Notes under the pieces: generated by a model
What the model was told of the DNA's origin: nothing
What the model saw: the letters and a program-made list of their open reading frames with translations, nothing else
Database searches by the model: none
Shown: in pieces, positions 3,812 to 25,073 of the stretch
Layout: the number at the start of each line of letters is the position of its first letter
How positions within the stretch are numbered: position 1 is the first letter of the stretch
Virus record (IMG/VR): IMGVR_UViG_3300017759_000066
Span: 1-25,073 of that record
From: a virus
Length of the DNA: 25,073 bases
Direction: 5' to 3' (one strand)
Position numbers and translations under genes: made by a program

Positions 3812-3817
3812 ATAATT

Positions 3818-4081: not shown

Positions 4082-4093
4082 AAGGGGTAACAC

Positions 4094-4342: not shown

Positions 4343-4354
4343 AGGAGAAGCAAA

Positions 4355-4663: not shown

Positions 4664-4681
4664 TACATAGAGGTATGTGTT

Positions 4682-4840
4682 ATGGAAGAAATAAAAGAAA
4701 TAACAGATGTAGTCGCGGCAAGCACAGGTATACTAGCTTTAATTAGTTGGTTGCCCCCGATTGCATCTTTGTTTACGATTGTTTGGTTAGGCATTAGAAT
4801 TTATGAGTCTGATACAGTTCAGGGCTTTATTAAAAAATAA
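4682..4840 (+). CDS. Small membrane protein (52 residues)
   Basis: A short ORF starting ATGGAAGAAATA, with AGAGGTATG as ribosome binding site, that fills the gap between the preceding gene and the 1548-residue gene. A short acidic N terminus (MEEIKEITDVV) is followed by one long or two short hydrophobic stretches: roughly residues 11-21 and 23-41, with a WLPP break between them. The tail is polar (YESDTVQGFIKK). Small proteins of this shape are common in marine phages. It could be a holin-like or virion-associated membrane peptide; the sequence does not decide. Confidence 0.75.
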   Translation: MEEIKEITDVVAASTGILALISWLPPIASLFTIVWLGIRIYESDTVQGFIKK

Positions 4841-4852
4841 AGGTAGGTAAGA

Positions 4853-7800
4853 ATGAAGAAAAAAACGCAAACAAATACTAAGTCTTTAAAGAAATCTTTA
4901 AAGCGTAAAAAGTATGTGAAAGGCAGTAGAACTACGGTTAAAAACCCATCACAAAAAGACTTAGAAAATATGCGAAAGAAGGGTTTATCTACTACTTTGC
5001 CTACTACACCTGCAAAGAAAAAGACCACGCCTACAACAATACCCGGCCCTTCAACGCCAAAAGGAGGATCAGTTCCGCAACCTTTGCAACCTTTGCAACC
5101 TATAAAAGAAAACACTAGAACAACTACACCAACAACAATTCCTGCTAGACAAAGAGATTTACTTAGTCCTTTTCCTTTTGTCGATACAAAATTACCTGAT
5201 CAACCAACTTCTGGTTCTATTAGAGAAAGTGTAGGTAGAGGAAGAGGTGTTCCAACAACAGGAAATCCAAGAGGTAATATAACTGAATCTCTTAGAGGAT
5301 TAGGTAGCAGAAGACCAAATATAGATTTTCAACAACCAACAGGTGTTGGTAGGACTCCTCCTCCACCCCCAAGAGTAACGCTTACTGCTGACCAAAGAAA
5401 ACAAGCAGAAGCTAGAAGACAAGAAGCAGTTAATGATTTCATTAGAAGACAAGAAGCAGTTAATGATTTCATTAGTAGAGGAAGGGATGCTACTAATGTA
5501 CAAAATGCTCCAGTAGAACAATTTGCTCCTTCATTTACTACACAAAATGCAAGTACTCCACAAACTTCAAACTCATTTTTATATACTAGGTCATCACCTA
5601 GAGATTCTGATGGTTCTCAAGAAGCAAGACGAGGACGTAGAAATGGTGATAAAACTACACCTACACCTACACCCACGCCTACACCTACGACTACATCTAC
5701 GACTACATCTATTCCTGCCCCTTGGTGGCAACAAAGAGGATATGGATCTAAGGAAGAAGCTTTTGCTGATGGTTGGAGGTTTGTCCCCGGAGAGGGTTGG
5801 GTACAAACTCTAGGAGATGGTGATCCGCCTGAAGGTGAACCTCCTGAAGGTGACCCTCCTGAAGGTGACCCTCCTGAAGGTGACCCTCCACCTCCTAGTG
5901 ATAAACCAAAAATAGAAACTGGATTACCTGATGATGCTCCTACAACTATAAGACAACAAGCACCTGAAGTAGTCTTAAAACAAATGAATGCTACATTAAC
6001 AGCCGGAGGAGCTTTAAGTCCCGGTGCTCAAAGGATGCTTGAAGACTTTATAAAAGAAGACCCAGATGGAGTTACAGGAAGACAAGCTAAATTAACTTTA
6101 CAAAAAGCAGGTCTTTCTACAGATGTAGAGCAACTAGGCGAAGCCCCCGAAGCAGAGATGACAGATGTTGATGCTAGAACTTTGGATGTTTCTCAAGGAA
6201 CTATACAGCAAGCAGGATTAGAAACTGGTGATCCGGCTAGAGGCTTTGAAGCAACCACCGTTAGCGGAGAACTACCTCCAACTGAAGCCGCCCAAGAAGA
6301 CACACTTAGAAGAGGTACGGCAGGTCAAGCGCAAGCTGAAGATGTAGATACAGCACAAAGAGATAAAGCCGCTGAAGAAGAGGCAAAGGGAAAAGCCGCA
6401 ACAAGACCAAAGGCTCGTGATTATGCGAAAGCCGCTACAACTGATGACAGGTTTATTGTAGGCCCAATTGATGGCCCTGATGTAGATACTCGTACAGGTG
6501 TAACAATACCGCAATCTAAAATTGATGAGCTTACAAAGCTTGCAAAAGATAGAGGACTTGATCCCACAGAGGCCATAAAAGAATATAGAGAATCTATGGG
6601 TGAAAGAGAAGTTCAAACAGCCGATGCCGCACAAAAAGTTTACACACCTAGACTTGGAGAATCCCCTGAAGAAACAGCGGCTAGGGCAGAATACTATGGT
6701 GCTGATTATACACCGCAAGGTGGTAAAACAGAAATAGATGATACTCCTGCATATAAAAAAGCCGCTACACGTAAAGCCGCAACTGGCGAAGCCGCACAGC
6801 GTATTGCAACTGAACTAGGCAATGCGCCTTCAACAGACTTAAAAGGTCGTGAAGCTATTACTGGCGAAGCACCTAGAGGAAATGCCGCACAGATTGGTGG
6901 TGTTCCTACAATGGCGGCCGCAACTAGACAGGCTGTAACAGGACAAGAAAGAAATGTAGCCGCTTCAGATATGAATGCGGTTGTTGCTGATTTACCTGAA
7001 GAAATAACTGCGGCTATTGCTCAAAATCCTGCTGAACCTAAAATAATAGAAGACCTAAATGCTGACCCACAAGTAACAGCCGCTGTAGCCGCACTACCTA
7101 CTGAAGCTTTAGTTTCTACACAAATGGAAAGCTTACTTGCAGGAATGGAAGAAGGAGAAACACCTGCATGGGCTAGACCTGCGGTTGATGCTATTAATCA
7201 ACAAATGGCTAGAAGAGGTTTATCTGTTTCGACAGTAGGTCGTGATGCATTGTTTAATGCTATTATACAAAGTGCATTACCTATAGCTCAAAGCAATGCA
7301 ACAGCACTTCAAACTAGAGCGCAACAAAATCTAAGTAATGAGCAACAAGCTAACTTAGCGACTGCTCAAAATACTATGCAAGTTCGTATGCAGAACTTAG
7401 CAAACCGTCAGACTGCCGCATCTCAAACGGCTCAAATGGCTCAACAGATTGCTGTACAACAAGGTACATTTGATCAACAAGCCGTAATGACAACTGCCCA
7501 ACAACAGCAAGAAACAAACTTAGCTAATGCTCAAATGGCACAGCAAAGGGCGCAACAAGAGTCTTCTCAGCGTCAACAAGCCGCTATAGCTCAACTTAGT
7601 ACTAATGCTCAAATGGACTTAGCAAACTTGCAAGCTCTTAATGCCGCAGGTTCAGAAAGAATGAGCGCAGATCAACAATCTAAATTAGCTACATATAATG
7701 CTCAAGTTGCTAAGATTATGCGTCAAGCTGAGTTAACTCAAGACATGGAAAAAGCTAATCTTTCTCCTGCATTACAAGTTGAGATGCAAAGAGTTTCAGA

Positions 7801-9499
7801 AATAAACGCGGCCGCAAGAGATACAATGACCGCAGAAAATCAAGAGCGTTTAGTAGAACTTCAAACTCTTATAGACTTCCGCAAGACTGATGCTACATTT
7901 GCTCAACAAATGGACATGGCTAATATGTCTAATGAGCAACAAATAGAACTTGCAATGCTACAAGAAAAGGCGGCTACTGATGCGGCTAACTTTACAGCAG
8001 ACAATCAATTTGAATTAACTAGATTAAATAATATTGTTGCTCGTTCTGTTCGCCAAGCAGAACTTAATTCTAGAATGGAAGAAGTTAATTTAGATGCTAA
8101 GTTAAAAGTAGAACTATCTGAATTGTCTGAAAGGAATACAACATCTCGCGCAAACATGACTGCTGAACAACAAACAAGACTTGCAAATCTTAATGTTCTT
8201 GTAGACTTCCGCAAAACTAATGCGGCTATGGCACAGCAAATGGATGTTGCTAATTTAGCTAACGAACAACAAATGGAACTTGCATTACTTCAAGAGCGTT
8301 CAAATGTAGATGCCGCTAACTTTACTGAAGATAATAGAACTAGAATGCAGTCTCTTAATACTTATGTTCAAGTTATGTCACAGAACGAACAACTTTTACA
8401 AAACTCTGACATGGCTAAATTATCAATGCAAGAAAAAATTAATCTTGCAAATCTTAATTCGCAGAGTCAAGCAGACATGGCTTCTATGACTGCCGAAAAC
8501 AGAGCAGAGCTTTTGTCCTATGAGAAAAGAATGCAAGCGGGTCAGGTTAATGCACAGCTTGCACAACAAATGGGATTAGCTGAATTAAGCAACGAACAAC
8601 AAGCCGCAATGTTTAATGCACAAATAGACGCAGGTTTAGATATGCGACAGTTTGATGCTAATCAACAAATGGAGTTAGCTAATAGTAAGTTCTTACAATC
8701 AATGACTATGACACAGTTTAATGCTGACCAACAATCAGCTATATCAAATGCAGTTAGATTAACTCAAGTTGATTTAGCAAATGCAGATGCAAGAACTAAA
8801 GTGTCAGTAGAAAACGCTAAAAACTTTTTAACTGTAGATATGGCTAATTTAAATAATAGACAGCAAGGAATAGTACTAGATCAACAAATGAGACAACAAG
8901 CTTTGTTATCTGACCAAGCCGCAGAAAATGCCGCAAAGCAATTTGGAGCAACATCTGCAAATCAATTAAATCAGTTTTTAATTAGTCAGTCTAATTCTAT
9001 GAAACAGTTTAATACTAGTGCTAGGAATGCTATGGAAAGTTTTAATGCTACCGAAGCTAATCGTATGGAAGCTATTGAAGCAGGTAATTTCTTACAGGCT
9101 GATACTTTTACCGCACAACTTGAAGCAGACATAAATAAGTTCAATGTACAAATAGATAATCAAAGAGAACAATGGAATGCGGCAAATGCGCAAGCCGTAG
9201 AGCAATCTAATATTAACTGGAGAAGACAGGCAAACACAATAGATACTGCCGCCCAAAATGCCGCAAATCAACAGAATGTTCAAAATGCTTATAACATATC
9301 TGCATTAGATCAAACTCAGTTATGGCAACAATTAAGAGATGAAGCATCTTATATTAGACAGGCTTACGAGAATAATGAACAAAGAGAAGCGCAGTTATTA
9401 GCTACAGCTATTGGTAATGAAGCAGGAGCTTCTGAAAAAACTAGTACAAGTACTTCTGCTTTATTGCAATTACTTAAAACTTATGGAGGAATAGAATAG
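4853..9499 (+). CDS. Giant Ala/Gln-rich coiled-coil structural protein (1548 residues)
   Basis: The start has AAGGTAGG as ribosome binding site. The N-terminal 340 residues are basic and low in complexity, with Thr/Pro runs, a Thr-Pro alternation near 270, and four (D/E)PPEG units near 325-345. The middle (about 370-780) is Ala/Glu-rich. From about 800 to 1540 the protein is almost pure helix-forming sequence rich in Gln, Ala, Asn and Met, with recurring NEQQ.ELA motifs and three copies of a 110-residue unit in exact register. No enzyme motif was recognised. Size and position among virion genes suggest a long fibrous or internal virion protein, possibly an ejection component; this is inference. 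The TAG stop shares its G with the GTG start of the next gene. Confidence 0.85.
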   Translation: MKKKTQTNTKSLKKSLKRKKYVKGSRTTVKNPSQKDLENMRKKGLSTTLPTTPAKKKTTPTTIPGPSTPKGGSVPQPLQPLQPIKENTRTTTPTTIPARQRDLLSPFPFVDTKLPDQPTSGSIRESVGRGRGVPTTGNPRGNITESLRGLGSRRPNIDFQQPTGVGRTPPPPPRVTLTADQRKQAEARRQEAVNDFIRRQEAVNDFISRGRDATNVQNAPVEQFAPSFTTQNASTPQTSNSFLYTRSSPRDSDGSQEARRGRRNGDKTTPTPTPTPTPTTTSTTTSIPAPWWQQRGYGSKEEAFADGWRFVPGEGWVQTLGDGDPPEGEPPEGDPPEGDPPEGDPPPPSDKPKIETGLPDDAPTTIRQQAPEVVLKQMNATLTAGGALSPGAQRMLEDFIKEDPDGVTGRQAKLTLQKAGLSTDVEQLGEAPEAEMTDVDARTLDVSQGTIQQAGLETGDPARGFEATTVSGELPPTEAAQEDTLRRGTAGQAQAEDVDTAQRDKAAEEEAKGKAATRPKARDYAKAATTDDRFIVGPIDGPDVDTRTGVTIPQSKIDELTKLAKDRGLDPTEAIKEYRESMGEREVQTADAAQKVYTPRLGESPEETAARAEYYGADYTPQGGKTEIDDTPAYKKAATRKAATGEAAQRIATELGNAPSTDLKGREAITGEAPRGNAAQIGGVPTMAAATRQAVTGQERNVAASDMNAVVADLPEEITAAIAQNPAEPKIIEDLNADPQVTAAVAALPTEALVSTQMESLLAGMEEGETPAWARPAVDAINQQMARRGLSVSTVGRDALFNAIIQSALPIAQSNATALQTRAQQNLSNEQQANLATAQNTMQVRMQNLANRQTAASQTAQMAQQIAVQQGTFDQQAVMTTAQQQQETNLANAQMAQQRAQQESSQRQQAAIAQLSTNAQMDLANLQALNAAGSERMSADQQSKLATYNAQVAKIMRQAELTQDMEKANLSPALQVEMQRVSEINAAARDTMTAENQERLVELQTLIDFRKTDATFAQQMDMANMSNEQQIELAMLQEKAATDAANFTADNQFELTRLNNIVARSVRQAELNSRMEEVNLDAKLKVELSELSERNTTSRANMTAEQQTRLANLNVLVDFRKTNAAMAQQMDVANLANEQQMELALLQERSNVDAANFTEDNRTRMQSLNTYVQVMSQNEQLLQNSDMAKLSMQEKINLANLNSQSQADMASMTAENRAELLSYEKRMQAGQVNAQLAQQMGLAELSNEQQAAMFNAQIDAGLDMRQFDANQQMELANSKFLQSMTMTQFNADQQSAISNAVRLTQVDLANADARTKVSVENAKNFLTVDMANLNNRQQGIVLDQQMRQQALLSDQAAENAAKQFGATSANQLNQFLISQSNSMKQFNTSARNAMESFNATEANRMEAIEAGNFLQADTFTAQLEADINKFNVQIDNQREQWNAANAQAVEQSNINWRRQANTIDTAAQNAANQQNVQNAYNISALDQTQLWQQLRDEASYIRQAYENNEQREAQLLATAIGNEAGASEKTSTSTSALLQLLKTYGGIE
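5414..5473 (+). repeat. 30-bp perfect tandem duplication (2 copies)
   Basis: The 30-base unit beginning AGAAGACAAGAAGCAG occurs at 5414 and again at 5444 with no difference visible. It duplicates the ten residues RRQEAVNDFI inside the low-complexity N-terminal region of the 1548-residue protein. Perfect identity suggests a recent slippage or duplication event. Confidence 0.9.
7712..8701 (+). repeat. 330-bp (110-residue) repeat, three copies, in the coiled-coil protein
   Basis: The codon for Met in the MTAE(N/Q) motif falls at 7826, 8156 and 8486, exactly 330 bases apart. TAGACTTCCGCAA, encoding the (I/V)DFRK motif, occurs at 7872 and 8202. Copies one and two are clearly alike (RQAEL, then MTAE, DFRKT, AQQMD, NEQQ.ELA.LQE, DAANFT). 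Copy three keeps MTAENR, AQQMG and LSNEQQ but has diverged. Confidence 0.85.
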
Positions 9500-11291: not shown

Positions 11292-13073
11292 ATGGGTATT
11301 AGAGACTACGGAGAATCGCTCCTCGAAGATGTTCGTAAAAGAAAAGATAAGTTAGCTAGTGAGAGCAGAAAAAGAGAAAGAAAAGGACATCTTCTTGGTC
11401 TTGCAGGTGCAGTCCTTGCTAACATAGGAAATAATAAATTAAGAGAACAATATCAAGATTTTAGTCAAAATCAAGATATTTTAAATACAAACATTATGTT
11501 AAATCAAGCAAATGGTGTTAATAAAACTTTAGAAGATTTAACTAAAAAAATTTCTGATAGTAATAAAAGCGTAAATGATTATTTTTTAGATAAAACTGTA
11601 GAAGAAACATTAGATAGCTTATTACAAAAACCAGAAAATGTAGGTTTTTTAAGAGATGAAAACTCTCAAAATGCATTTAGAAATGCATACAAATCACAAC
11701 TTTTACAACTTGAAGAAGTTAAAAATGCTTCTGATATTTATGCACAAAACTATAAAAAAGCTTTAGAGTTCCAAAACAAATTTAAAGTTAGTGGGACTAA
11801 AGAAGACGCAGAAAAAGTTGCAAAATCTAAATTTGGAGGAACTTTTAGTGGATTATTTAACCAAGGCGATAAACAACAAGAAGCTATTGATTATTATAGA
11901 AACTCTAAATACGCTAAAAGTTCAAAAGACCTTGCAGTATTTGATCAAATTTTTAAAGAGTCTGGTGGGGATTTTGTAAAGGCTATAAATATAGAACAAG
12001 AATTAAATAAAAATGCATTAGATAAGTTAGCTAAAGTTGAAACTTTAAGTGAAGCACGAAATGGGATAACTTATGTTATTGAAAAAAGAACAAATCAACA
12101 AGATGGAACTACTAGTATTACACAAAAAGAAACATTAGATTTAAGAGGGGAGGCTGAAAGAGTACAAGATTCATTAATAGTTTTTGATGCTAGAAACGAA
12201 TTAGAAAGCATCAATGAAGAAGGTTTTAAAATAGCAAAGGATAAAGGGTTTTCAATGAATCCTACAACTGTAGAGGCTGTAAATAAAAACAATGAAATTT
12301 TTAACGAAATTTATTTTGAACATCGTTCACTTGTATTAAGCGAAACGGACAAAGCAAGAATAGCAGAAGGAGTTCAATTTAGAGCATCAGGAGAATATAA
12401 AGACCTAATAGCTGAGAATACCAGAGCAGAAATAATAATTGAAAAGAAAAAAGAAGCTATAAAACAAGAAAACCCTAAACAAGAAACAGAAAATGAAAAA
12501 CAATATGAAGAAAGATTAAAGCCTCTTTTTAGTAATGATAAAGACATTACTCAAAGTGCGCAAGAAATAGCTACTAATAATTTAATTATTAAAAATAGAA
12601 TAGATGATATAAATCGAAGTTACTCATATACAGAACTACAAGCAGAAGACATAGGTATTGAAGGCACAACAGGTACAACAGGTACAAAAGGTACAAAAGG
12701 TACAACAGGCACGACTGGCGGCAACAATGAATATGTAATTTTAGAAATTACCGATGAAGAAGTTGCAAACTATAAAAATCGTTTTGCTCTTACAGATGTG
12801 TCTAATGAAGATATTCGTGAAAATGATAAAGAAAGGTTAGAAAATTATACAATAAAAAGAAGAGAAATAGAAGAATATAATAAACAATCAAGAATAAGGG
12901 TAGCTGATAGAGAATTAAATATTGAAATAAATAAAGCTAGAAAAGAATTGAATATTAAAATTCAAAAAGAATTAACTAGAGGAGAGAAAAAAATATATCG
13001 TGAAACAGGACAATATCCGTCTAGAATTTTAGAAAAATATAAAAAAGAATTTGACGATTTAGGACAAATTTAA
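11292..13073 (+). CDS. Putative internal virion protein with charged coiled coils (593 residues)
   Basis: A 593-residue, highly charged protein (Lys, Glu, Asn, Gln). The N terminus MGIRDYGESLLEDVRKRKDK is followed by a short hydrophobic Ala/Gly stretch (about 35-47, LLGLAGAVLANIG). Most of the rest is predicted helix. Near residues 458-475 a Gly-Thr repeat interrupts the helices, and another charged helical region follows. No catalytic motif is visible. It lies directly upstream of the 1299-residue ejection-type protein, as the T7 gp15-like and gp16-like genes lie side by side in podoviruses. That comparison rests on order and size, not on sequence similarity I can verify. Confidence 0.8.
   Translation: MGIRDYGESLLEDVRKRKDKLASESRKRERKGHLLGLAGAVLANIGNNKLREQYQDFSQNQDILNTNIMLNQANGVNKTLEDLTKKISDSNKSVNDYFLDKTVEETLDSLLQKPENVGFLRDENSQNAFRNAYKSQLLQLEEVKNASDIYAQNYKKALEFQNKFKVSGTKEDAEKVAKSKFGGTFSGLFNQGDKQQEAIDYYRNSKYAKSSKDLAVFDQIFKESGGDFVKAINIEQELNKNALDKLAKVETLSEARNGITYVIEKRTNQQDGTTSITQKETLDLRGEAERVQDSLIVFDARNELESINEEGFKIAKDKGFSMNPTTVEAVNKNNEIFNEIYFEHRSLVLSETDKARIAEGVQFRASGEYKDLIAENTRAEIIIEKKKEAIKQENPKQETENEKQYEERLKPLFSNDKDITQSAQEIATNNLIIKNRIDDINRSYSYTELQAEDIGIEGTTGTTGTKGTKGTTGTTGGNNEYVILEITDEEVANYKNRFALTDVSNEDIRENDKERLENYTIKRREIEEYNKQSRIRVADRELNIEINKARKELNIKIQKELTRGEKKIYRETGQYPSRILEKYKKEFDDLGQI
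12663..12716 (+). repeat. 9-bp microrepeat encoding a short collagen-like Gly-Thr-(Thr/Lys) run
   Basis: Six consecutive 9-base units of the form GG(T/C)AC(A/G)A(C/A)(A/G/T) encode GTT, GTT, GTK, GTK, GTT and GTT, followed by GG. The Gly-X-X periodicity is collagen-like but only six triplets long, so it is more likely a flexible linker than a stable triple helix. Near-identical units are prone to length change by slippage. Confidence 0.85.
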
Positions 13074-13075
13074 TT

Positions 13076-16000
13076 ATGCCAAAAACTAGAGTAAAAATGC
13101 CTAACGGAGATTACATACAAGTTGAACATCTTGAAGGTGCAACAGATCAAGAAATTATAAATCTAGCTAAATCTCAAACTTCAAACATAAAAAAAAATGA
13201 CGTTAGCATAGGAACAGATTTAAAGCGTGTATTATTAGATACACAAAGAGATGTCGTCAGTCTTATTGACTATCTTCCGGGAGATGCTTTTGATACTGAC
13301 GAAATGAGCGAACTTAGCAAACAAAAAAAATTAAGTGAACTTGCAGGTTTTGGTTATTTAGATACTGCTAAACATATAGATCCAGTAACAGGTAAAATAA
13401 AAGCTCCTGAAACTGGTGTAGGCATGGCGGCTTCTATTATTCCTTATATTGCAGGTACAGGTGCGCTTGTAAAAGCAGTTCCTAAATTAGCTATGAAAAT
13501 ATCTCCGAAACTTGGTGGCGTTTCTATGCCTAAAATAGCTCAATATACTTTAGCAGGTGCAGGAGCTTCTCAAGTATTAACCGATTTAGACGAAAACTTA
13601 TTTAATACTGTATCTGAAATTTTTCCAGAAGGAACTGAAAATACAGTAATACAAGCACTTAAAGCAGATGCTAATGATACTCAAACAGCTAAAAGACTTA
13701 AACTATTAATAGGAGATTTAGGAGTAGGTGTTGTAGCTGAAGGTTTATTTAAAGTTGCTCCTGCAATGAAAAACATTATAACCGCAAAAAAACCTACAGC
13801 GGATGACATTACTAATGGTTTAATGGGTAAAGCTGAAGAACTTACTAAAATGAGTTTACGGAGAAGTGATGCTGAATCTAGAGCAAGCGGTGTTGAAGTT
13901 CCAGTAAGAACAGATTTACCTACTGAAAAAGAAATATTTCGACAATCTGCTAAAGACTTAGAACAAATAGAAGCTCAAAAAACAGAAGGTAAAAAAGGAA
14001 TAGATTTTGCTAAAGCTAAGTTAATGCAAGTAAAACAACAACTGTTTACTTCAAGGGGCTATGCACCTTCTAAAATGTTTGACATATTTAATCAAACACA
14101 AACTCAACAACGCTCTATGATTACTGAATCTACTCAAGTTGCACAAAGACTTAATAACTCTTTAAAGTCTTTAGCAGACACAGCAGTTCAAACAGCTAAT
14201 AGAGATAAAGCACAAAAACTTTTAACTAGTAATATTTCTAAATATACTTCTCTTCCTTTTGAAGAACAAGTAAAAGCTTTATCGACAGGAGAAAATATTA
14301 CAGAAGGAGTTGCCGAAGCCGTTTTAGATGCTCGTTATTTAATAGATAAACTATCTAGACAAATTGCAGGAAGTAAAGGATTTTTAAAAGAAACTCAAGA
14401 AAGTATACAAGAAAATATGGGAGAGTATTTAAGAACTTCATATAAAGCTTTCGATGACTCTGCTAATTTTGTTGTTGATGATGTATTAAAAGAAAGTGTT
14501 ATTAAAGATTTAACAGAATCAAAAATTAGTGCCGCTTTAGAAAAAGGAACTACTTTAAGTGCGGCTAAAGCAAAGCGTTTAGCTACCATAGAAATAGACG
14601 GTTTACTAGGAAAGACAAACAAAAAAACTTTAGATTTTTTAGCACAAGCTAAAAGAGTAGGAAAGTTTCATAAAAAAAATCCAGACCTTGATCCAAAAAT
14701 AAAAGAATTATTAGGGGAAATTAAAGACCCTTCTGAAAATATTATTCTTAGTGTTAGTAAAGCCGCAAGAATTTATGAAATGAATAACTTTTATCAAATA
14801 GCTAATGCATTAGGTAAAAGCGGAAAATATATACAGGGGCCAAAAAGCCAATCTGTACAAGAAAAAAGACTTACTACTAAAATAAAAGGAACCAATTCTA
14901 TATTAGACGGTAAATTTACTACTCCTGAAGTAGCTAAATTTTTAAATCGTCAAGAAGAAACATTTAGTTTTTTAAGTAAAAATACTGACGGAGCCGCTGA
15001 AGTCTATAAAGTATTTTTAAAATATAAAGGTGTTACACAGGCTTCTAAAACTGTATATAGCCATGTTACAGCTTTAAGAAATATATTAGGCGGTATGCAA
15101 TTTGCTGTAGCTAATGGAAATTTATCTGCATTTAATCCTTTATCTAAAAATAGAGGACAAATGAAAATTCTATACAATCAAATAAGGGGTTTAGGAGATA
15201 AAGAGTTAGATGAAGTTTATAAAAAATTTGTAGATTTAGGAGTAATTAATACTAATATTAAAGTAAATCAATTTAGAGAGCTTATAAAAATATCTTCTCA
15301 AGACTTTGGAACTAAAACAGTTACTAATTTTATGAGAAACAATCCTATTTTAAAAGGCATGGAAAATTTTTATTTAGCAGGTGATGACTACTTTAAAATG
15401 TCTGGATTTGTAAAAGAATTAGAAATTTTAAAAAAAGCACGACCTAATGTTTCTATAGATATTTTAGAAAGAGAAGCCGCTGACATTATTCAAAATACAA
15501 TACCAAATTATGACAGGGTTTCTAAAGGTTTAAAAAAATTAAACTATTTACCGTTAGGTAACTTTATATCTTTTCCTGCTGAAATAGTAAGAACAAGCTA
15601 TCATATTGTAAAACAAGCTAGTAAAGAAATAAATTCAGGAAATACTTATTTAAGAAACAGAGGTCTTCAAAGACTTGCAGGTTTTACTTCTGCTATGGTA
15701 GGAATTAATGAAGCTTCTAAATTATCTGCTAATTTATTGGGTTGGACAGAAGAAGAAAGAATGTACAATACAAAATTAGCTGAAGGTAAATATGAAAAAA
15801 ATAGTAATTTTATATGGTATCGTAAAGATGATGGACAAATCGCAAAAGTATCTACTAAATATTTAGATTCTTATAATACAATAAAAGAGCCTGTATTAGC
15901 TGTTTTAGATAGAATTATAGACGGAGAGTTAAAAGGAGAACAGTTAGATGATTATATTCTTAATGCGGCTACTAGTGGATTTTTAACTTTAGGAACTCCT

Positions 16001-16975
16001 TTTTATTCAGAGTCAATATCTACTAAAGCAATATCAAATGTTTTAGAAGCTATACGTTCTCCAGAAGGAAGAACTTCAGACGGTAAATTGCTTCTTCCTC
16101 CTAGTATGCCTACAGATGATAAAATATTAGCAATAGCAGATTTAATGTATAAATCTGTAGAGCCGGGAACATTTACAAGTCTTGGAAAATTAATAGATTA
16201 TGTAGATGACTATACAGGAGAAGAACAAGAAAAACTTGGCCCTGTTAACAAGCAAGCTTTTATAACAAATATAACAGGACTTAGATTAACTAATCATAAT
16301 CCTGATACTCAATTAAAGTTTGCTGTTTCAGACTATAATAAAAAAACAAGGAATAACATTAAACCATTTTTAAAAATAGGAGAAGATTCTTCTATTTCAA
16401 TGTTAGAAACATACATAGCTCATCAAAGTAAAAATTATGAATATCAACAAGAACTTTTTGAAAAGATAAATGCATATTCTGCAATATACGGAAGATATGA
16501 AACTTATAATATTTTAAAAGATAGTGGGCTAAGTAAACCTGCGGTACTTAGTTTAATAGAGGGTGAGTTTAAACCTTCAAAGCCTCCAGTACTTGACGAT
16601 AGAGCATTAGAGGTTATAAAAAATTCTATGCTTGAAGACGATAATATATATGAAGAAATGCGTAAAACAAAACAAGAATTTAAATCTATATTTGAATCTC
16701 TTCAAAATTTAACTTTATATAATGAAGGATCTTTAAATCCTTTTGATTTAAAAGAAGAAACATTTGATAGGCTTGACAAGAATATAGGCGGTGAGGTATC
16801 TACAACTATTCCTAATGCCCCTACAGAGCCAGATGAGCGTGTTAACAAGCTTACTGGACTCCCCTACAATGAAACCGCAGGAACGGCTTATATGGACTTT
16901 GATGACCCTGTAAGGCCATTGAGTATGTCAAAGGGCGGTAAAGTACTAAAAGTATTAAAGAGGAAATGTGCTTAA
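13076..16975 (+). CDS. Large putative internal virion / DNA-ejection protein (1299 residues)
   Basis: The ATG lies three bases after the preceding stop. The N terminus reads MPKTRVKMPNGDYIQVEHLEGATDQEI, a short beta-type head of the kind that opens many large podovirus internal core proteins. Hydrophobic Gly/Ala-rich segments appear around 115-170 (GMAASIIPYIAGTGALVKAV) and near 205-225. The remainder is mostly Lys/Glu-rich helix. The C terminus ends VNKLTGLPYNETAGTAYMDF and then a basic tail (KGGKVLKVLKRKCA), a closing pattern I recall from other marine-phage giants. I see no lytic transglycosylase motif, although gp16-type proteins often have one. The assignment as a gp16-like ejection protein rests on size, head motif and position. 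Confidence 0.75.
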   Translation: MPKTRVKMPNGDYIQVEHLEGATDQEIINLAKSQTSNIKKNDVSIGTDLKRVLLDTQRDVVSLIDYLPGDAFDTDEMSELSKQKKLSELAGFGYLDTAKHIDPVTGKIKAPETGVGMAASIIPYIAGTGALVKAVPKLAMKISPKLGGVSMPKIAQYTLAGAGASQVLTDLDENLFNTVSEIFPEGTENTVIQALKADANDTQTAKRLKLLIGDLGVGVVAEGLFKVAPAMKNIITAKKPTADDITNGLMGKAEELTKMSLRRSDAESRASGVEVPVRTDLPTEKEIFRQSAKDLEQIEAQKTEGKKGIDFAKAKLMQVKQQLFTSRGYAPSKMFDIFNQTQTQQRSMITESTQVAQRLNNSLKSLADTAVQTANRDKAQKLLTSNISKYTSLPFEEQVKALSTGENITEGVAEAVLDARYLIDKLSRQIAGSKGFLKETQESIQENMGEYLRTSYKAFDDSANFVVDDVLKESVIKDLTESKISAALEKGTTLSAAKAKRLATIEIDGLLGKTNKKTLDFLAQAKRVGKFHKKNPDLDPKIKELLGEIKDPSENIILSVSKAARIYEMNNFYQIANALGKSGKYIQGPKSQSVQEKRLTTKIKGTNSILDGKFTTPEVAKFLNRQEETFSFLSKNTDGAAEVYKVFLKYKGVTQASKTVYSHVTALRNILGGMQFAVANGNLSAFNPLSKNRGQMKILYNQIRGLGDKELDEVYKKFVDLGVINTNIKVNQFRELIKISSQDFGTKTVTNFMRNNPILKGMENFYLAGDDYFKMSGFVKELEILKKARPNVSIDILEREAADIIQNTIPNYDRVSKGLKKLNYLPLGNFISFPAEIVRTSYHIVKQASKEINSGNTYLRNRGLQRLAGFTSAMVGINEASKLSANLLGWTEEERMYNTKLAEGKYEKNSNFIWYRKDDGQIAKVSTKYLDSYNTIKEPVLAVLDRIIDGELKGEQLDDYILNAATSGFLTLGTPFYSESISTKAISNVLEAIRSPEGRTSDGKLLLPPSMPTDDKILAIADLMYKSVEPGTFTSLGKLIDYVDDYTGEEQEKLGPVNKQAFITNITGLRLTNHNPDTQLKFAVSDYNKKTRNNIKPFLKIGEDSSISMLETYIAHQSKNYEYQQELFEKINAYSAIYGRYETYNILKDSGLSKPAVLSLIEGEFKPSKPPVLDDRALEVIKNSMLEDDNIYEEMRKTKQEFKSIFESLQNLTLYNEGSLNPFDLKEETFDRLDKNIGGEVSTTIPNAPTEPDERVNKLTGLPYNETAGTAYMDFDDPVRPLSMSKGGKVLKVLKRKCA

Positions 16976-18640: not shown

Positions 18641-18652
18641 GACAACAATATA

Positions 18653-18702
18653 CGTTCATCCTTATTTAAGGACGGAAGTAGGCATGGGGCCGAAGGAACG
18701 CG
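18653..18702 (+). ncRNA. Glutamine riboswitch aptamer (glnA / Downstream-peptide class)
   Basis: The sequence has the characteristic conserved blocks CGTTCATCC (18653-18661), GGACGGAAGTAGG (18670-18682) and CCGAAGGAACG (18690-18700). Folding fits the class: stem P1 pairs 18653-18657 with 18696-18700 (five pairs), P2 pairs 18659-18663 with 18668-18672 around a four-base loop, and P3 pairs 18681-18683 with 18689-18691. The class binds L-glutamine and is known from cyanobacteria and marine metagenomes, upstream of nitrogen genes or of a small downstream peptide. Here it sits in the only long non-coding gap of the plus-strand block, directly before a small YRGV-containing ORF. Confidence 0.9.
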
Positions 18703-18725
18703 ATTGATTAACAGTCAATTACGTT
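18697..18725 (+). promoter_or_regulatory. Candidate riboswitch expression platform (anti-P1 hairpin)
   Basis: AACG (18697-18700) can pair with CGTT (18722-18725). This continues inward through one mismatch, a G-U pair and the five-pair ATTGA/TCAAT stem (18703-18707 with 18715-18719), closing a seven-base loop. The first four bases are also the 3' strand of aptamer stem P1, so P1 and this hairpin exclude each other. The hairpin ends two bases before the GGAGG ribosome binding site (18728-18732). A translational switch is inferred; direction of control is not certain. Confidence 0.7.
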
Positions 18726-20323: not shown

Positions 20324-20535
20324 CTCAAAGATTTTAATTCTTTTTCTAAATAGACATGCATTTCTTCTAACTTAGGTTTTGCAAGACCTACTAGTTTTTT
20401 CATAATATTTAATTCATTATCTTTAAAGACTCTAGACAAATGATTCTCAGGGACACTACTAAGTTCTGTTATAATAGTGCCACTAGAATCTATAATGACT
20501 TTAAAGCTTATGAGATTAGCTTCATTGTATTTCAC
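20314..20535 (-). CDS. Hypothetical protein after ribonucleotide reductase (73 residues)
   Basis: The GTG start lies within the last codons of the reductase gene (14-base overlap), with GGAAC seven bases upstream. The protein reads MKYNEANLISFKVIIDSSGT, suggesting a short beta hairpin, then a Lys/Glu-rich helical half (LNIMKKLVGLAKPKLEEMHVYLEKELKSL). No known family. Coding status rests on overlap spacing, orientation and ordinary composition. It is the last gene of the minus-strand block and runs into the opposing gene's stop. Confidence 0.65.
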   Translation of the reverse strand: MKYNEANLISFKVIIDSSGTIITELSSVPENHLSRVFKDNELNIMKKLVGLAKPKLEEMHVYLEKELKSLSHV

Positions 20536-22402
20536 AAGATGTTCCTACACACGCCAACTCCTGAGAGCCTACCGTATTATCTTCTGTTTCAAAAGCTTGT
20601 AACTCTACAGCCCAATCTACATCTTTAGGCATTTCTTTTAAAAGCTCTTGATATTTACTTCTATCTATTTCTTCATAAGGTGCTTGCTGATAAACATGAT
20701 CACTATATGGTAGTAGCGATATGCCAGAACAAACATCAAAGTTCTTCCATATCCATTGAGCAACCTCAAGAAACTCGTCATCAGTATAATAAATAGTAAT
20801 ACTAGGTTTATGTTCGCACCAAGCATCTTGATACATTTTCCAAAGATTTAATTGTTCCATTGCGCCTGTTTGTTTAACAGTTACACTAGACTTTGGAGCC
20901 TGTACAGGAAAGCTAAATACTTTAGACTTAGGAGACATTACATCCTGCTCAACAGGAAAACCCCTATCAGACATAAACACAGAAAGAGGGTCTTTCTCGT
21001 CCGCACGAACTCTACGAATATAATACTGAGAAAAACGAGGATGGATACCACTAGCACTATTAACAAGTTGACTAACAGTACCGCTTGGTTTAACACATGT
21101 AATAGCCGTTGATTGATTAATGTCAAGTTTCTTTGCCCATGTTTTATTAGTTTTGATAGCAACATATTTCATCTCTCCTAACCATAGTTCTGTTTTATCA
21201 CATGGTTTTCCAAGAACAGGATGATCCATAATGCCTGTTAAACTTACTCCAAGCAATGCTTCTTCTTCTGTATTCTTTTTCCAAACACTTCTTAAATACC
21301 TAAAGTCCGTTAAAGTAGCTTGAAGGGTTCCTATAATAGCGGCTACTTTTACTTTTTCTTTTAAGGTTTCTAGGTTATCGTCATTTCTAATAACTACTTC
21401 AGATAAATTACAAAATTGATTTGACCTAAGTATAATCTCAGAACAAGGATTAGTTCCAAAGTCTTGATTAGGATCTCTTCTATCGTTTCTAGCGGCTATC
21501 TTTTGAGCCGCAACCCTGCTAAAGATACCGCGCTCTCCGGCCTTAGATTCATACATGTTCTGCATCTCACTAAGAAAGGCTTCAAAGTCAGGCTTCTCAG
21601 TATAGGCTACACTATTGTTAGCTAATCTTCTTTGACCCTCATTGCGCCACCAGTCACCCATCTTAGCTTTACCCATTCTTTGATCCGAAAGATTAGATAA
21701 ACTAATTAAAGCAGAACGCCTAACACCACCGACAACCACAATGTCTGCAACCTTACAAACAACATCGTGACACTCTATAGAAGTAAGCTTACGTCCTTTT
21801 GCTTTTGTAAATATACCAACACAAAAATTAAACAAATCATCTAAGGGTTCAGGGCCAGAAGCTCTACCGCCAAAAGTTTTTAGTCTATCTCCGGCAGGTC
21901 TTACTTTACTTAAATCCCACTTAGGAATCTTACCTGCATAAAGTAAACTAATTAACTCTCTAAATGCAGAAGACCACCCTATCTTACTATCTGCTACAAC
22001 AATCATCGTATCAGTTGGATGAAAAGATTCAGCAACTTCCGGGAGTTTATTAATAAAGTTTCTTTCTACACTAAAGCCAACACCAGTGCCGCACATAAGA
22101 ACATACATGAGTTCATCAAAAGACCTTGGAGAATCTATATGCAAATAACTACAATTAAATCCTGCTACATTATCTCTATCTAATGCTTCTCCGGCTGTCA
22201 TAATACAACGCATAGATGGCATAACATCTAAGTTATAAACAGCCTCATATATTTTCTGTCCTTCTGCTACAGTTATTTGTTCTCTGTCTCTCCAAAATTG
22301 TACATAACGATAAACAGTTTCTGCCCATGTTTCTCTTCTTTTATGTTCAGGAAGCCACCTAGCATAACGACTTTTATGTATAAACTCTTGATACTGATCC
22401 AT
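20522..22402 (-). CDS. nrdJ: Adenosylcobalamin-dependent ribonucleoside-triphosphate reductase, class II monomeric
   Basis: A 626-residue enzyme that reduces ribonucleotides to deoxyribonucleotides for phage DNA synthesis, using B12 as radical source. Key residues of the RTPR type are visible: Cys84 (GFNCS) and Cys331 (QFCNLSE) as the reducing pair; Asn318, Cys320 and Glu322 in NPCSEI as the radical site; the loop PSGTVSQLVNSASGIHPR; and the tail pair Cys618 and Cys623 in CVGTSC that re-reduces the site. Single-subunit RTPR enzymes are about 740 residues, so this is a compact phage version. No separate small subunit is present, as expected for class II. The start ATG at 22402 has AAGGATAG about 13 bases upstream. 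Oxygen-independent action would suit any host that makes or imports cobalamin. Confidence 0.95.
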   Translation of the reverse strand: MDQYQEFIHKSRYARWLPEHKRRETWAETVYRYVQFWRDREQITVAEGQKIYEAVYNLDVMPSMRCIMTAGEALDRDNVAGFNCSYLHIDSPRSFDELMYVLMCGTGVGFSVERNFINKLPEVAESFHPTDTMIVVADSKIGWSSAFRELISLLYAGKIPKWDLSKVRPAGDRLKTFGGRASGPEPLDDLFNFCVGIFTKAKGRKLTSIECHDVVCKVADIVVVGGVRRSALISLSNLSDQRMGKAKMGDWWRNEGQRRLANNSVAYTEKPDFEAFLSEMQNMYESKAGERGIFSRVAAQKIAARNDRRDPNQDFGTNPCSEIILRSNQFCNLSEVVIRNDDNLETLKEKVKVAAIIGTLQATLTDFRYLRSVWKKNTEEEALLGVSLTGIMDHPVLGKPCDKTELWLGEMKYVAIKTNKTWAKKLDINQSTAITCVKPSGTVSQLVNSASGIHPRFSQYYIRRVRADEKDPLSVFMSDRGFPVEQDVMSPKSKVFSFPVQAPKSSVTVKQTGAMEQLNLWKMYQDAWCEHKPSITIYYTDDEFLEVAQWIWKNFDVCSGISLLPYSDHVYQQAPYEEIDRSKYQELLKEMPKDVDWAVELQAFETEDNTVGSQELACVGTSCEIQ

Positions 22403-22406
22403 TGTT

Positions 22407-22538
22407 TTATTCTCTATCCTTTGGTTGATTGTCTTTGTGTTTTATTTTTTTTAACTTAGAAGAGTTTTCTATTTTGTTAAACTTTTTCTTACGTACAAAC
22501 CTATCTCTTCTTTCATCTTTTCTGCTAAAAGTAGTCAT
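22407..22538 (-). CDS. Tiny basic ORF between DUF3310 and ribonucleotide reductase (43 residues)
   Basis: The ATG overlaps the DUF3310 stop as ATGA and the stop falls four bases before the reductase start, so it exactly fills the gap. The protein is mostly Lys, Arg, Asp and Asn (MTTFSRKDERRDRFVRKKKF and on) with no hydrophobic core, so it may be disordered or nucleic-acid binding. No family recognised. The tight fit is the main evidence that it is translated. Confidence 0.65.
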   Translation of the reverse strand: MTTFSRKDERRDRFVRKKKFNKIENSSKLKKIKHKDNQPKDRE

Positions 22539-22876
22539 TTATTTTCTAAAAGCTCGACCATTTTATTTAAATACCATATAGCCTTTCGAGCGTCCTCTAT
22601 TGTTTTACCTTTATTAAACAATCTAGATCCTGTGTACTTTAACACATTACCGTGGCAATACCTAACAGCATATTCAATTCCTAACACATCAATTATATAA
22701 TCAATCGTTTCTATATCGCCTTGATTATAATGCGGTGGGTGGTTCACTGCTTCCGTAATAGCGGTTGAAGCCCTATTCCAATTTAATCTATCCCATTCTT
22801 CGGGGGTAGCATCATCTATACTATTTCTAGCCATATCACTTTGCATCCTTAAATAATCTTCTATTTCATTCGACAT
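22535..22876 (-). CDS. DUF3310 family protein
   Basis: A 113-residue protein read from the ATG at 22876, which overlaps the endonuclease stop by eleven bases; an in-frame TTG one codon upstream is less likely. The C-terminal two thirds match DUF3310: VNHPPHYNQGDIETIDYI, then YCHGNVLKYTGS, KGKTIEDARKAIWYLNKMVE. The family is common in phages next to replication genes and is sometimes annotated as a nucleotide kinase-like protein, without firm proof. The N-terminal 40 residues are acidic and unrelated to the domain. Confidence 0.9.
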   Translation of the reverse strand: MSNEIEDYLRMQSDMARNSIDDATPEEWDRLNWNRASTAITEAVNHPPHYNQGDIETIDYIIDVLGIEYAVRYCHGNVLKYTGSRLFNKGKTIEDARKAIWYLNKMVELLENK

Positions 22877-23342
22877 CAAAACTATCTCTTTTCTTTTCGT
22901 TTATCCAATCACTAGGCATACTGTCTTCACTAAACCATTTAAAACCATTAGCACTTGCCCACTCTCCATGACTTCTTTTAGTTCCATCTTTTCTCATTTT
23001 AGCTTGCGGCATTGGGGCATTAGGATTAGCAAATAAAAAAACTAACTCTGTATTTTCAGGAAGTGCTTTATTAATCCATACATATTTACTGTATTCAGCG
23101 TAGTCCCAAAACCTACCTTTAGCTTCAAGTAAAACAGTTTTGTTTTTTACTTCTTTAGTAAAGTCAGGTTCATAAGTATGTTCAACAACATATTTAATTT
23201 TATCAAAATGAAAGTCCCACGAATCTAAAATACCTGTATGTAATTCGTATTCCCAATTAGAGTCATATCCTTTTACAAGATCTTTTTCTACAGGTCTTTT
23301 AACTCTTGGTTTACGAAAACCTTTTTTTATTTTTTTAGTCAA
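22866..23342 (-). CDS. T7 endonuclease I-like Holliday-junction resolvase
   Basis: A 158-residue protein of the phage endonuclease I fold (PD-(D/E)XK). The catalytic set lines up with T7 gp3: Glu31 (SNWEYE), Asp60 (YEPDF), Glu73 and Lys75 (LEAKG), then the conserved C-terminal HGEWASANGFKWFSEDSMPS and DW. The enzyme cuts four-way junctions and branched DNA, resolving replication intermediates before packaging; in T7 it also helps degrade host DNA. The spacing between Asp60 and Glu73 is three residues longer than in T7. The start is a TTG that overlaps the upstream TGA, with AAAAGGTAA about nine bases before it. Confidence 0.92.
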   Translation of the reverse strand: MTKKIKKGFRKPRVKRPVEKDLVKGYDSNWEYELHTGILDSWDFHFDKIKYVVEHTYEPDFTKEVKNKTVLLEAKGRFWDYAEYSKYVWINKALPENTELVFLFANPNAPMPQAKMRKDGTKRSHGEWASANGFKWFSEDSMPSDWINEKKRDSFDVE

Positions 23343-23506
23343 TGTACAGTTACCTTTTGTTTTTTTTGTATTTCAAAATCAATTAATTGTTTTAGTTTTA
23401 TCCATACTTCTAAAGATACATTGTCAACATGGCCGCCATCCACAATCATCCAATGACTCAAAGAAAACACACAGTCTTGTAAATTTAATTTTTGTTCGTT
23501 ATCCAT
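23339..23506 (-). CDS. Hypothetical small protein (55 residues)
   Basis: The ATG lies inside the 3' end of the preceding 95-residue gene (22-base overlap), with AAAGGA about six bases before it. The stop TGA overlaps the TTG start of the endonuclease gene. The protein reads MDNEQKLNLQDCVFSLSHWM, then IVDGGHVDNVSLEVWIKLKQ and a Lys/Gln-rich end, giving a compact helical pattern. No family recognised. Fit between two genes and a good ribosome binding site support it. Confidence 0.72.
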   Translation of the reverse strand: MDNEQKLNLQDCVFSLSHWMIVDGGHVDNVSLEVWIKLKQLIDFEIQKKQKVTVH

Positions 23507-23772
23507 TCAACATCCTTTAAACTAATTGATTGTATTGGTTTAAAAGGTAGTAAATTTACAATCTTTTTTATTTTATTTTTAATCCATTTCGGATTGTAAG
23601 AATTTAAATATATAGTTCTGTTAGCATAGAAGTGTGTTTGTTCAGGTACAAAGTTTAAACAATTTTCTACAGATATTTTATCTGCTTCTTCTTGCGGCAA
23701 TAAAGTTTTAAGCCATTCTACTAATATAACTTTACATTGATTAGAAATTTTTTTAGATTTTTTACCATTCAT
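23485..23772 (-). CDS. Hypothetical protein (95 residues)
   Basis: The ATG overlaps the exonuclease stop (ATGA). The sequence is Lys/Asn-rich: a basic N terminus, a helix with CKVILVEWLKTLLPQEEADK, a segment with CLNFVPEQTHFYANRTIYLN and NPKWIKNKIKK, and a C terminus ending DVEWITNKN. The NPKWIKNKIKK stretch is basic enough for DNA contact, but I recognise no domain. It sits between exonuclease and endonuclease, so a role in replication or recombination is possible by context only. Confidence 0.75.
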   Translation of the reverse strand: MNGKKSKKISNQCKVILVEWLKTLLPQEEADKISVENCLNFVPEQTHFYANRTIYLNSYNPKWIKNKIKKIVNLLPFKPIQSISLKDVEWITNKN

Positions 23773-24623
23773 AATATTTCTTCTACCTGTGGTTCTGATG
23801 CAACGTGAGTTAAATAAACAAGACTATTAGAATACTTAAATGTTCTAAGCCCTGCTCCATCATTAGCATCATTATAACAATCGAATTTATACTTACACCA
23901 AGCACAAGACTTAGGTAGTTTGTAGTTACCTTTCTTACCTTCTGGTACAGGATCATAACATCTTTCTGGTTTATCATCTAAATCTAAAGATGCTATAAGA
24001 TTGTTTATTTTATTTTTAATATTAGGTTTGTCTAACTCTTCTGGGCGATGTAAACAAAGCTCTCCTGATTCTTTATTAATAACTAAAAATCCACCGTTGT
24101 TAGTACCTTCCGCTTCTTCGTATCCTGCAAGCTGTCCTAAGTATCCGAAAGGATCGTCATCAGCTAATCTTCCTTGTTGAAACTTTTTAAAAGCAAAGTT
24201 AGATGCAGATTTAATATCAACCACTTCACCATTAATTTTACAATCCATATGTCCTGTAATGTTATCTACTTTAACTTCTTTCTGTTCATCAGTAACATCA
24301 TGACCTGCCATTCTAACTAACATTAAAACTATTTCTTCTAAGACATGCCCATACAAAAACTTTATTTGAGATATAGCATCAACAGTATTACTTGAAGTAT
24401 CTCTTTTCTGATACCACAATTGTCTAGCAGGTCTACCTATGTTAGACATTCTTAGTGAAAAATCACTATCTCTTTTTGTAGGGTTAGACCACGATAGTAT
24501 AGCACCCTTTAAACCTTCCATAGTCTCGTCTAAGGCACTTTCTGTGATAGGTAGTGGTATCCCATTAGACAAGTCTTCTAAAGGCTTATATACGTCTTCT
24601 ATAAGGTTTTCAAGTTTTTTCAT
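23769..24623 (-). CDS. PD-(D/E)XK exonuclease, RecB/Cas4-like
   Basis: Read from the ATG at 24623 it has 284 residues; a TTG at 24638 would add five. The nuclease core is clear: YGHVLEE (first acidic site), GHMD (Asp near residue 127), then VVDIKSAS with the Asp-X-Lys pair. The C-terminal part has Cys followed by CAWCKYKFDC, which is the Cys cluster seen in RecB-like nucleases with a possible iron-sulphur or zinc site. Phage proteins of this type sit beside the polymerase and serve as the replication or recombination exonuclease, the counterpart of T7 gp6. Its neighbours here are two further nucleases. Confidence 0.88.
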   Translation of the reverse strand: MKKLENLIEDVYKPLEDLSNGIPLPITESALDETMEGLKGAILSWSNPTKRDSDFSLRMSNIGRPARQLWYQKRDTSSNTVDAISQIKFLYGHVLEEIVLMLVRMAGHDVTDEQKEVKVDNITGHMDCKINGEVVDIKSASNFAFKKFQQGRLADDDPFGYLGQLAGYEEAEGTNNGGFLVINKESGELCLHRPEELDKPNIKNKINNLIASLDLDDKPERCYDPVPEGKKGNYKLPKSCAWCKYKFDCYNDANDGAGLRTFKYSNSLVYLTHVASEPQVEEIL

Positions 24624-24939
24624 TTCTATGCTTTGCAAATTTACATTGTCTAGAGTTGATATTAAATACTAATATAACAACACCTTCTTTCTTTTGTTTG
24701 TCGGTTCTTCCACTAGAATAGCTACACCTATCTCTTCGTGTAGATTTAACATCTATGAGTTTTATTTCTTTATTTTTAACGGCTATTAAATCTATATACC
24801 CACTACCTCCACAATTTTTAAATACCTCGTATCCCTGATCCCAAAGCCAAGTTACTGCATGGTATTCAGCAAAGTCTCCTTTTCTTGTAGAATTAAAAGA
24901 CTTTCTTGCATCTCCTGATATTTTATTAATGTTTTTCAC
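24610..24939 (-). CDS. Small PD-(D/E)XK endonuclease-like protein
   Basis: The preferred start is the GTG at 24939, one base after the upstream stop and with AGGAAA seven bases before it; an ATG at 24975 would overlap that gene by 35 bases. The 109-residue protein shows RKGDFAEYHAVTWLWDQGYE, GGSGYIDLIAVKNKEIKLID and DVKSTRRD. That gives Glu25, Asp50, Asp63 and Lys65, the pattern of PD-(D/E)XK enzymes of the small resolvase or PDDEXK_5-like type. The substrate is not known; such proteins occur in archaeal Holliday resolvases and in homing-type nucleases. The 3' end overlaps the exonuclease start. Confidence 0.82.
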   Translation of the reverse strand: MKNINKISGDARKSFNSTRKGDFAEYHAVTWLWDQGYEVFKNCGGSGYIDLIAVKNKEIKLIDVKSTRRDRCSYSSGRTDKQKKEGVVILVFNINSRQCKFAKHRNEKT

Positions 24940-24940
24940 T

Positions 24941-25073
24941 TTAGTTTTCCTGTAGGTCAGGATAATACTTAGCATTAAACTTAGCTTGTTGTTCCTTTAT
25001 GTCTGCTAGTTCTTCGTCCATAAGAGCATCCATTTTTTGACCTACAAACTCGTTTTCGTCTGAGATAGCCTTC
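24941..25073 (-). CDS. C-terminal fragment of a gene continuing past the window edge
   Basis: The frame is open to base 25073, so only the last 44 residues are visible. They are acidic and helical (KMDALMDEELADIKEQQAKF, then NAKYYPDLQEN and a TAA stop). Nothing identifies the protein. By position, upstream of nuclease genes in a replication block, it could be a replication protein, but the tail alone cannot tell. Confidence 0.75.
   Translation of the reverse strand, partial: KAISDENEFVGQKMDALMDEELADIKEQQAKFNAKYYPDLQEN

Follow-up and report, generated by a model that had tools for sequence, protein, structure and literature searches.

The window analysed here is a 25,073-base IMG/VR virus record (IMGVR_UViG_3300017759_000066), and all positions below follow its numbering. 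It carries a minus-strand module that begins with a gene for a 109-residue protein, here called N3, followed in order by genes for an exonuclease, a 95-residue protein, endonuclease I, a DUF3310 protein, and a B12-type ribonucleotide reductase (RNR). Comparison with related marine podophages located N3 between the DNA polymerase and exonuclease genes, at a slot where it is exchanged for unrelated genes between phages that are otherwise nearly identical. The genes of the module, and the one that precedes N3, are as follows.

24610 to 24939, minus strand: N3, the slot occupant, a 109-residue PD-(D/E)XK protein resembling Hjc and I-Ssp6803I (Pfam Hjc, AlphaFold2 and fold matches, catalytic residues).
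24941 to 25073, minus strand: KYA, the 3' end of a gene for a 120-residue protein on the polymerase side of N3, read in the sister contig L090 at 4336 to 4698.
23769 to 24638, minus strand: RecB/Cas4-type exonuclease with a four-cysteine cluster (phrog_1990, E 8.2e-54; motifs and cysteines).
23485 to 23772, minus strand: the 95-residue gene, part of the conserved module and present in 59 of 81 loci (phrog_37981, E 4e-29).
22866 to 23342, minus strand: endonuclease I of the T7 gene 3 type (PF05367 above cut-off; T7 endonuclease I chains; catalytic residues).
22535 to 22879, minus strand: DUF3310 protein, a downstream gene of the module (PF11753, E 4.7e-16).
20522 to 22402, minus strand: B12-dependent type RNR, the last gene of the module (phrog_367, E 3.2e-184; Pfam RNR domains, with the B12-type insertion domain slightly under cut-off).

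KYA runs off the window, and the polymerase lies past that edge; it is visible in L090, where 5,698 nucleotides match the window at 99.6% identity. A preliminary description of this DNA, made from the sequence alone, had placed three different PD-(D/E)XK nucleases on one strand between 22866 and 24939: endonuclease I, a RecB/Cas4-like exonuclease with a cysteine cluster, and a third, small nuclease extra to that pair. All of this was borne out, with catalytic residues intact; absent from that account was the 95-residue gene that separates endonuclease I from the exonuclease.

The N3 reading frame starts with a GTG at 24939, and an alternative ATG at 24975 would extend the protein to 121 residues. 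N3 exceeded the cut-off of Pfam Hjc (E 3.3e-5; 24.2 bits against 21.1) and fell far under that of NCBIfam Hol_resolv_Hjc (19.8 against 70 bits); also under Pfam cut-offs were its matches to UPF0102, NERD, and PDDEXK_5 (E 1.9e-4), which we take to be the family containing I-Ssp6803I. An AlphaFold2 model (mean predicted local distance difference test score, pLDDT, 79) had the PD-(D/E)XK fold of archaeal Hjc, which was the top Foldseek match (1gef, E 4e-6), and the next family was the homing endonuclease I-Ssp6803I (2ost, E 1.8e-4). Alignment with VIA-align tied the two, at Z 9.8 for Hjc and 9.6 for I-Ssp6803I, so that the fold decides neither for a resolvase nor for a homing enzyme. The same program also matched N3 to a SPARDA subunit (Z 10.0) and to tRNA-splicing endonucleases, which we treated as a common fold only. 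All 51 aligned rows have E25, D50, D63 and K65, and the catalytic residues were kept in all 74 distinct slot copies, indicating that the resemblance is not due to chance. With its match to I-Ssp6803I, tied with Hjc, N3 has a fold that homing enzymes use, and its catalytic residues are intact.

A scan of viral contigs with N3 recovered 269 relatives, from which 80 loci were retained. The window's own N3 had no match among 50,697 phage records at E 1e-5, a diverged family member matched Syn5 gp28 at 2e-5, and the family profile detected Syn5 gp28, P60 gp17 and P-SSP7 gene 18. One scan of bacterial genomes found N3 at two loci, which are probably phage contigs, since each time a phage polymerase and exonuclease of the window's kind adjoin it. 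N3 is free-standing: no intron was seen, and no group I intron reached Rfam thresholds in eight sources.

Loci were collected with N3, exonuclease and polymerase queries (345 in total, 292 with both flanking genes, 221 of these non-identical), and slots were labelled with our own profiles and motifs, samples of which were checked with Pfam. These labels ignore KYA and unclassified open reading frames, so an N3-labelled locus may carry another gene. The first 80 relatives had suggested that N3 belongs to a constant module of three nucleases, an impression that arose because N3 itself was the query and that was overturned by the exonuclease-based sample. N3 does lie between polymerase and exonuclease in most N3-query loci with enough sequence (it stands ahead of the polymerase in L035 and L043), and many loci fetched by exonuclease or polymerase queries hold other genes in its place.

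Among the 221 loci, the slot was labelled N3 in 80, GIY-YIG in 62, and phrog_13596 in 58. The remaining labels were phrog_13596-like with N3 (6), Endo VII (5), HNH-like with N3 (3), GIY with phrog_13596 (2), and one each of HNH-like, N3 with phrog_13596, a GIY stub with phrog_13596, and Endo VII with phrog_13596. The last locus, L021, was unlabelled because of a cut-off exonuclease (its N3 was seen separately) and was excluded from the set of 220 used below; a cut-off exonuclease likewise cost L051, labelled HNH, the N3 that it also has. Pfam T5orf172 was found in five of five sampled full-length GIY occupants, though not in the 66-residue GIY stub of L124, a trace of decay, and Endonuclease_7 in four of four sampled Endo VII-type occupants, in which the motif is C-terminal. 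Of the HNH-like genes, that of L051 fell under the Pfam cut-off and that of L245, GIY by profile and relabelled by motif, had no Pfam match. The phrog_13596 occupants share an invariant E-x-K and a later Glu; their AlphaFold2 model was poor (mean pLDDT 54.7), and their profile gave nothing useful against N3 or PDB sequences (top match interleukin-18, E 0.09).

Exchange at this position was measured in 143 close pairs of IMG/VR contigs, meaning a polymerase identity of 97% or more, and a slot was counted as non-homologous when under half of its DNA was covered. The slot label differed in 28 of the pairs, four of these being cases in which the smaller slot lies fully inside the larger one, that is, a gene added and not swapped. 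Slot DNA was non-homologous in 40 pairs, 24 with different labels and 16 with the same label in diverged form, and was half to nine-tenths covered in 17 more. By the same measure, the last kilobase of the polymerase and the exonuclease were non-homologous in 0 of 143 pairs each, the stretch from exonuclease to endonuclease I in 0 of 113, and endonuclease I in 2 of 113. Contigs L090 and L091 are 97.8% identical across 3,749 nucleotides upstream, ending at the polymerase stop codon, and 98.0% across 2,997 nucleotides downstream, from slightly inside the exonuclease; between these ends the contents are unrelated, KYA and N3 in the former and a GIY-YIG gene in the latter. L056 and L207 have different slots despite 100% identical polymerase and exonuclease proteins. 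N3, GIY-YIG, phrog_13596 and Endo VII-type genes therefore replace each other between near-identical phages with flanks unchanged, and N3 occupies a gap beside conserved essential genes from which it is exchanged between close relatives. Of the suggestion that the third nuclease was of a homing type and had become fixed, the second half does not fit this lineage, N3 being swapped with unrelated genes where polymerase and exonuclease are 97 to 100% identical; its presence in related phages is mixed, N3 occurring in many while other nucleases occupy the slot in close relatives.

Faulty metagenome assembly at a variable site was considered as the source of the exchange, since the near-identical pairs counted are IMG/VR contigs. 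This seems very improbable, because 18 swapped pairs have no locus in common (9 with different labels, 9 with the same; this independent count and the footprint count below used 41 swapped pairs, against 40 in the close-pair count), the slots contain open reading frames with one fixed start across occupants, and complete genomes of cultured phages show different occupants in the same place.

The fixed start is shared by most of these loci. In 159 of the 220, the last possible in-frame start of the first classified slot gene lies exactly 11 nucleotides before the polymerase stop codon, whether the gene is N3 (47), phrog_13596 (55), GIY (47), KYA (3) or another (7). Start codons overlapping the polymerase gene were found in 172 loci, 162 of them preceded by GGAG, AGGA or GAGG, and annotated coordinates give the same spacing in the cultured phages HTVC031P, Eistla, HTVC041P and Gjalp. 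Because this start lies inside the 3' end of the polymerase gene, unrelated slot proteins begin alike (VKHTK, MKPTK); in the window's lineage KYA stands between polymerase and N3, and the N3 start, VKNIN, retains a similar leader. With a fixed start codon and a sequence resembling a ribosome-binding site already in place, a gene placed in frame with it, downstream of the polymerase stop, should be translated immediately.

The history of N3 also differs from that of its neighbours. In 50 loci with all four genes, the rank correlation of pairwise distances with those of the polymerase was 0.22 for N3, 0.74 for the exonuclease and 0.73 for endonuclease I, and random 85-column samples of the longer proteins stayed at 0.59 to 0.79, so the short length of N3 does not explain its low value. 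Retained in this comparison were L017 and L020, which have identical N3 and exonuclease, distant polymerases, and perhaps a damaged frame.

The two neighbouring nucleases are conserved members of known families. Endonuclease I scored above the cut-off of Phage_endo_I PF05367 (E 1.1e-8; 35.3 bits against 29.1), matched T7 endonuclease I structures in phmmer searches (E 3.4e-6 to 2.1e-5), and has the catalytic Glu, Asp, Glu and Lys of that family as E31, D60, E73 and K75, invariant in 36 aligned sequences. The exonuclease, assigned to the Cas4-domain family phrog_1990, had no match in searches of Pfam and PDB sequences; the RecB motifs, QxxxY and four cysteines of the Cas4/RecB type are present in it, and D132, D141, K143, Q169, Y173, C227, C245, C248 and C254 were invariant in 41 sequences. 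Its true start is probably an ATG at 24623, overlapping the end of N3, a call that rests on the reading of L090. The closest cultured relative is in HTVC115P (51% identity). Because this exonuclease is of the Cas4 type, as annotated in roseophage SIO1, and not of the T7 gene 6 type, the window lacks the T7 gene 3 and gene 6 pair. Some N3 loci (L074 at 3539 to 4354 and similar) have a phrog_298 family exonuclease (E 2.9e-11) in place of the Cas4 type; such loci make up 15 of the 221, and 14 of them have N3.

Since the Pfam model detected endonuclease I in just 3 of 24 records, we used our own alignment (A2), which detected it in 17 of 36 records, many of them fragmentary. Most loci (139 of 145) have endonuclease I next to the slot, and N3 therefore need not act as the sole resolvase in most. 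Endonuclease I was missing from its usual place in six, all with N3 (6 of 52 N3 loci against 0 of 93 others; Fisher 0.0018, from few lineages), and all six came from the N3-query fetch. In the longest of these records, L012 (30,861 bases), no endonuclease I was found, and the record may be incomplete. The idea that N3 stands in for endonuclease I was set aside on this account, given that the other 46 N3 loci carry both.

Cultured phages show the same layout. N3-family proteins occupy the same place in P-SSP7 (gene 18), P60 (gp17) and Syn5 (gp28), with profile E values of 4e-11 to 3e-8, and P-SSP7 gene 18 matched PDDEXK_5 at E 2.2e-4. The phrog_13596 profile matched HTVC019P gp20 and HTVC120P gp16 (E 2e-37 and 3e-42). 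All five of these phages are Autographiviridae with the gene in the same position between polymerase and exonuclease; their slot genes carry hypothetical or uncharacterised annotations, and in Syn5 and P-SSP7 the exonuclease is noted as a T7 gene 6 type. Also found in the slot were phrog_13596 proteins in the further Autographiviridae HTVC031P, Eistla, HTVC041P and Gjalp, a decayed 63-residue half copy in HTVC011P (63% identity over 59 residues to HTVC041P gp16), and genes that are HNH-like by motif in HTVC200P, HTVC119P and S28-C10; the last is annotated as an endonuclease, and Pfam gave no supporting match for those of HTVC200P and S28-C10. An empty slot was seen only in HTVC103P, HTVC104P and HTVC115P. 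The slot is widespread, yet not universal.

Three genes of slot families were seen outside the slot: phrog_13596 genes in HTVC115P (gp21; L085 at 1924 to 2307), whose polymerase-exonuclease gap is empty, and in HMO-2011 (gp19; L354 at 5914 to 6417), whose gap holds another gene, and a gene annotated as endonuclease VII after PhoH in Celeribacter phage P12053L (gp35; L084 at 12368 to 12727), which matches the slot Endo VII profile at E 2.5e-21.

Elsewhere in the window, a glutamine riboswitch aptamer lies at 18651 to 18704 on the plus strand (RF01739; 62.5 bits, cut-off 35), in a phage context and with two small open reading frames shortly downstream. A plus-strand protein of 1,263 residues (20 to 3811) has many short repeats of the NTAxGxxAL kind and by eye resembles a tail fibre, and two very large plus-strand proteins, of 1,548 residues (4853 to 9499) and 1,299 residues (13076 to 16975), had no PHROG match at E 0.1.

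Several known systems invite comparison. T4-like phages have free-standing homing endonucleases (seg and mob, with SegH/Hef replacing mobC/mobE), which, like the slot genes, are intergenic beside replication genes and replace each other by family (PMC2988022). The slot differs in that at least four unrelated families share it, the start codon is within the polymerase gene, and the window's occupant is a PD-(D/E)XK protein with a putative homing role. Barth et al. 2023 (PMC10448857) describe phage loci and islands of homing endonuclease genes (HEGs), with genes of the homing family T5orf172 and other HEGs near polymerase, RNR and terminase genes, often with other HEG classes nearby and with content that may vary while flanks are nearly unchanged; that work covers T5orf172 and IPA-HNH genes, and its available text did not mention the slot, N3 or phrog_13596. 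Archaeal Hjc, the top sequence and Foldseek match, has Glu in the 1hh1/4tkd alignment where N3 has Asp, the NCBIfam score is below cut-off, and N3 is inherited apart from its neighbours. I-Ssp6803I is intron-encoded and cyanobacterial, whereas N3 is free-standing. In T7, gene 5.3 is likewise a nuclease gene directly behind the polymerase, but it encodes an HNH protein and lies among several small genes. The slot was not found described in the available parts of the literature covered, which lay mostly outside subscription journals and included PMC10448857, PMC6083498, PMC9038755, PMC10580990, PMC11092137, PMC2988022 and PMC11620839.

The folds of the occupants, GIY-YIG, HNH, PD-(D/E)XK and the Endo VII motif, are ones that homing enzymes use (PMC6083498), and free-standing homing endonucleases behave in the same way, one nuclease replacing another next to replication genes (PMC2988022, PMC10448857). 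From the exchange we infer a homing or interference role, and of the three guesses that had been made for the third nuclease, a second resolvase, an enzyme that degrades host DNA or a homing-type nuclease, homing is the best supported. N3 is the current occupant of an exchangeable slot, and rapid turnover there suggests a homing or competition enzyme sooner than a second resolvase that has settled in; the slot is probably a turnover site for such nucleases. Acting as a site-specific endonuclease, N3 would cleave the corresponding region in a related phage that shares the cell and has a different slot; the phage exonuclease would widen the break, and repair would copy the N3 phage. Either the N3 allele would spread in this way or the progeny of the rival would be lost. 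Other slot nucleases would act likewise in turn, producing the turnover. A homing endonuclease can damage a co-infecting rival (PMC11620839), and, more tentatively, the slot could be a polymorphic weapon locus of abundant ocean podophages, where unrelated nucleases set behind the start codon within the polymerase gene displace each other by fighting in mixed infections, and which is therefore almost never empty, whose allele decides the winner of a co-infection and in which N3 is a free-standing PD-(D/E)XK homing or interference endonuclease.

The turnover itself would also suit nucleases aimed at non-phage targets (host DNA, host defence plasmids or phage satellites) and replaced as those targets change, and homing-related nucleases have been turned against satellites (PMC10448857). 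We consider this doubtful, as no target, host or satellite link was found and the sole match in a PADLOC scan of N3 was a weak one to HEC-02A (E 0.02).

Several observations weigh against the reading of the slot as a site of homing or competition turnover. The weak link between N3 and polymerase distances persists, being reached by only 1 of 500 permutations. A polymerase tree of 169 loci required no fewer than 24 changes of slot state and 15 of N3 presence, against 81 to 94 and 42 to 56 in 30 shuffles, so slot type partly tracks lineage. The footprint of gene conversion beside swapped slots is weak, a comparison of 18 with 40 pairs giving a Mann-Whitney p of 0.011 on the polymerase side; the first 100 or so nucleotides of the exonuclease diverged by 8.9% in swapped pairs, against 4.0%. 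The phrog_13596 protein is a candidate nuclease and not a proven one, other genes, none of them a recognised nuclease, stand in the place in CRP-114, CRP-403, CRP-804, SIO1 and its kin, CRP-4 and HMO-2011, and the N3 active site never decays among its 74 copies. Finally, none of 163 loci from exonuclease or polymerase queries had an empty slot, a result to be expected of a needed function more than of a purely selfish gene.

Such a function could be a step of phage DNA metabolism, for example one in which branched DNA is resolved or trimmed alongside polymerase and exonuclease; small nucleases would be interchangeable for it, and N3 would be a junction nuclease of the Hjc kind whose activity partly overlaps that of endonuclease I. 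N3 is Hjc-like by sequence and fold, the family of the Endo VII-type occupants includes true resolvases (PMC6083498), cultured Autographiviridae have the same slot beside another exonuclease type, and all six loci lacking endonuclease I carry N3, though these were fetched with N3 and represent few lineages. Yet 46 of the 52 N3 loci have endonuclease I alongside, the adjoining recombination enzymes, exonuclease and endonuclease I, do not undergo this kind of exchange, and the slot is empty in the three cultured phages named above. The C-terminal motif of the slot Endo VII proteins is, moreover, like that of a clade taken for endonucleases and not resolvases in PMC6083498. That paper makes, for podoviral proteins with the Endo VII motif, the argument used here for N3, namely that a phage which also encodes endonuclease I need not depend on them as its resolvase. 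We therefore regard a needed function as unlikely, while the lack of empty slots in the main sample, the unbroken active site and the six N3 loci without endonuclease I (fetched with N3) keep for it a minority share of belief that is not small.

What is new here is the place of N3, an exchangeable slot between polymerase and exonuclease. Phages that are almost the same except at this one small slot form a natural series, and the layout is also found in cultured pelagiphages and cyanophages, so that whether such nucleases are selfish, are weapons between phages, or have a role in DNA metabolism becomes directly testable. For hypothetical genes such as P-SSP7 gene 18, Syn5 gp28 and HTVC019P gp20, the slot supplies a family and a hypothesis.

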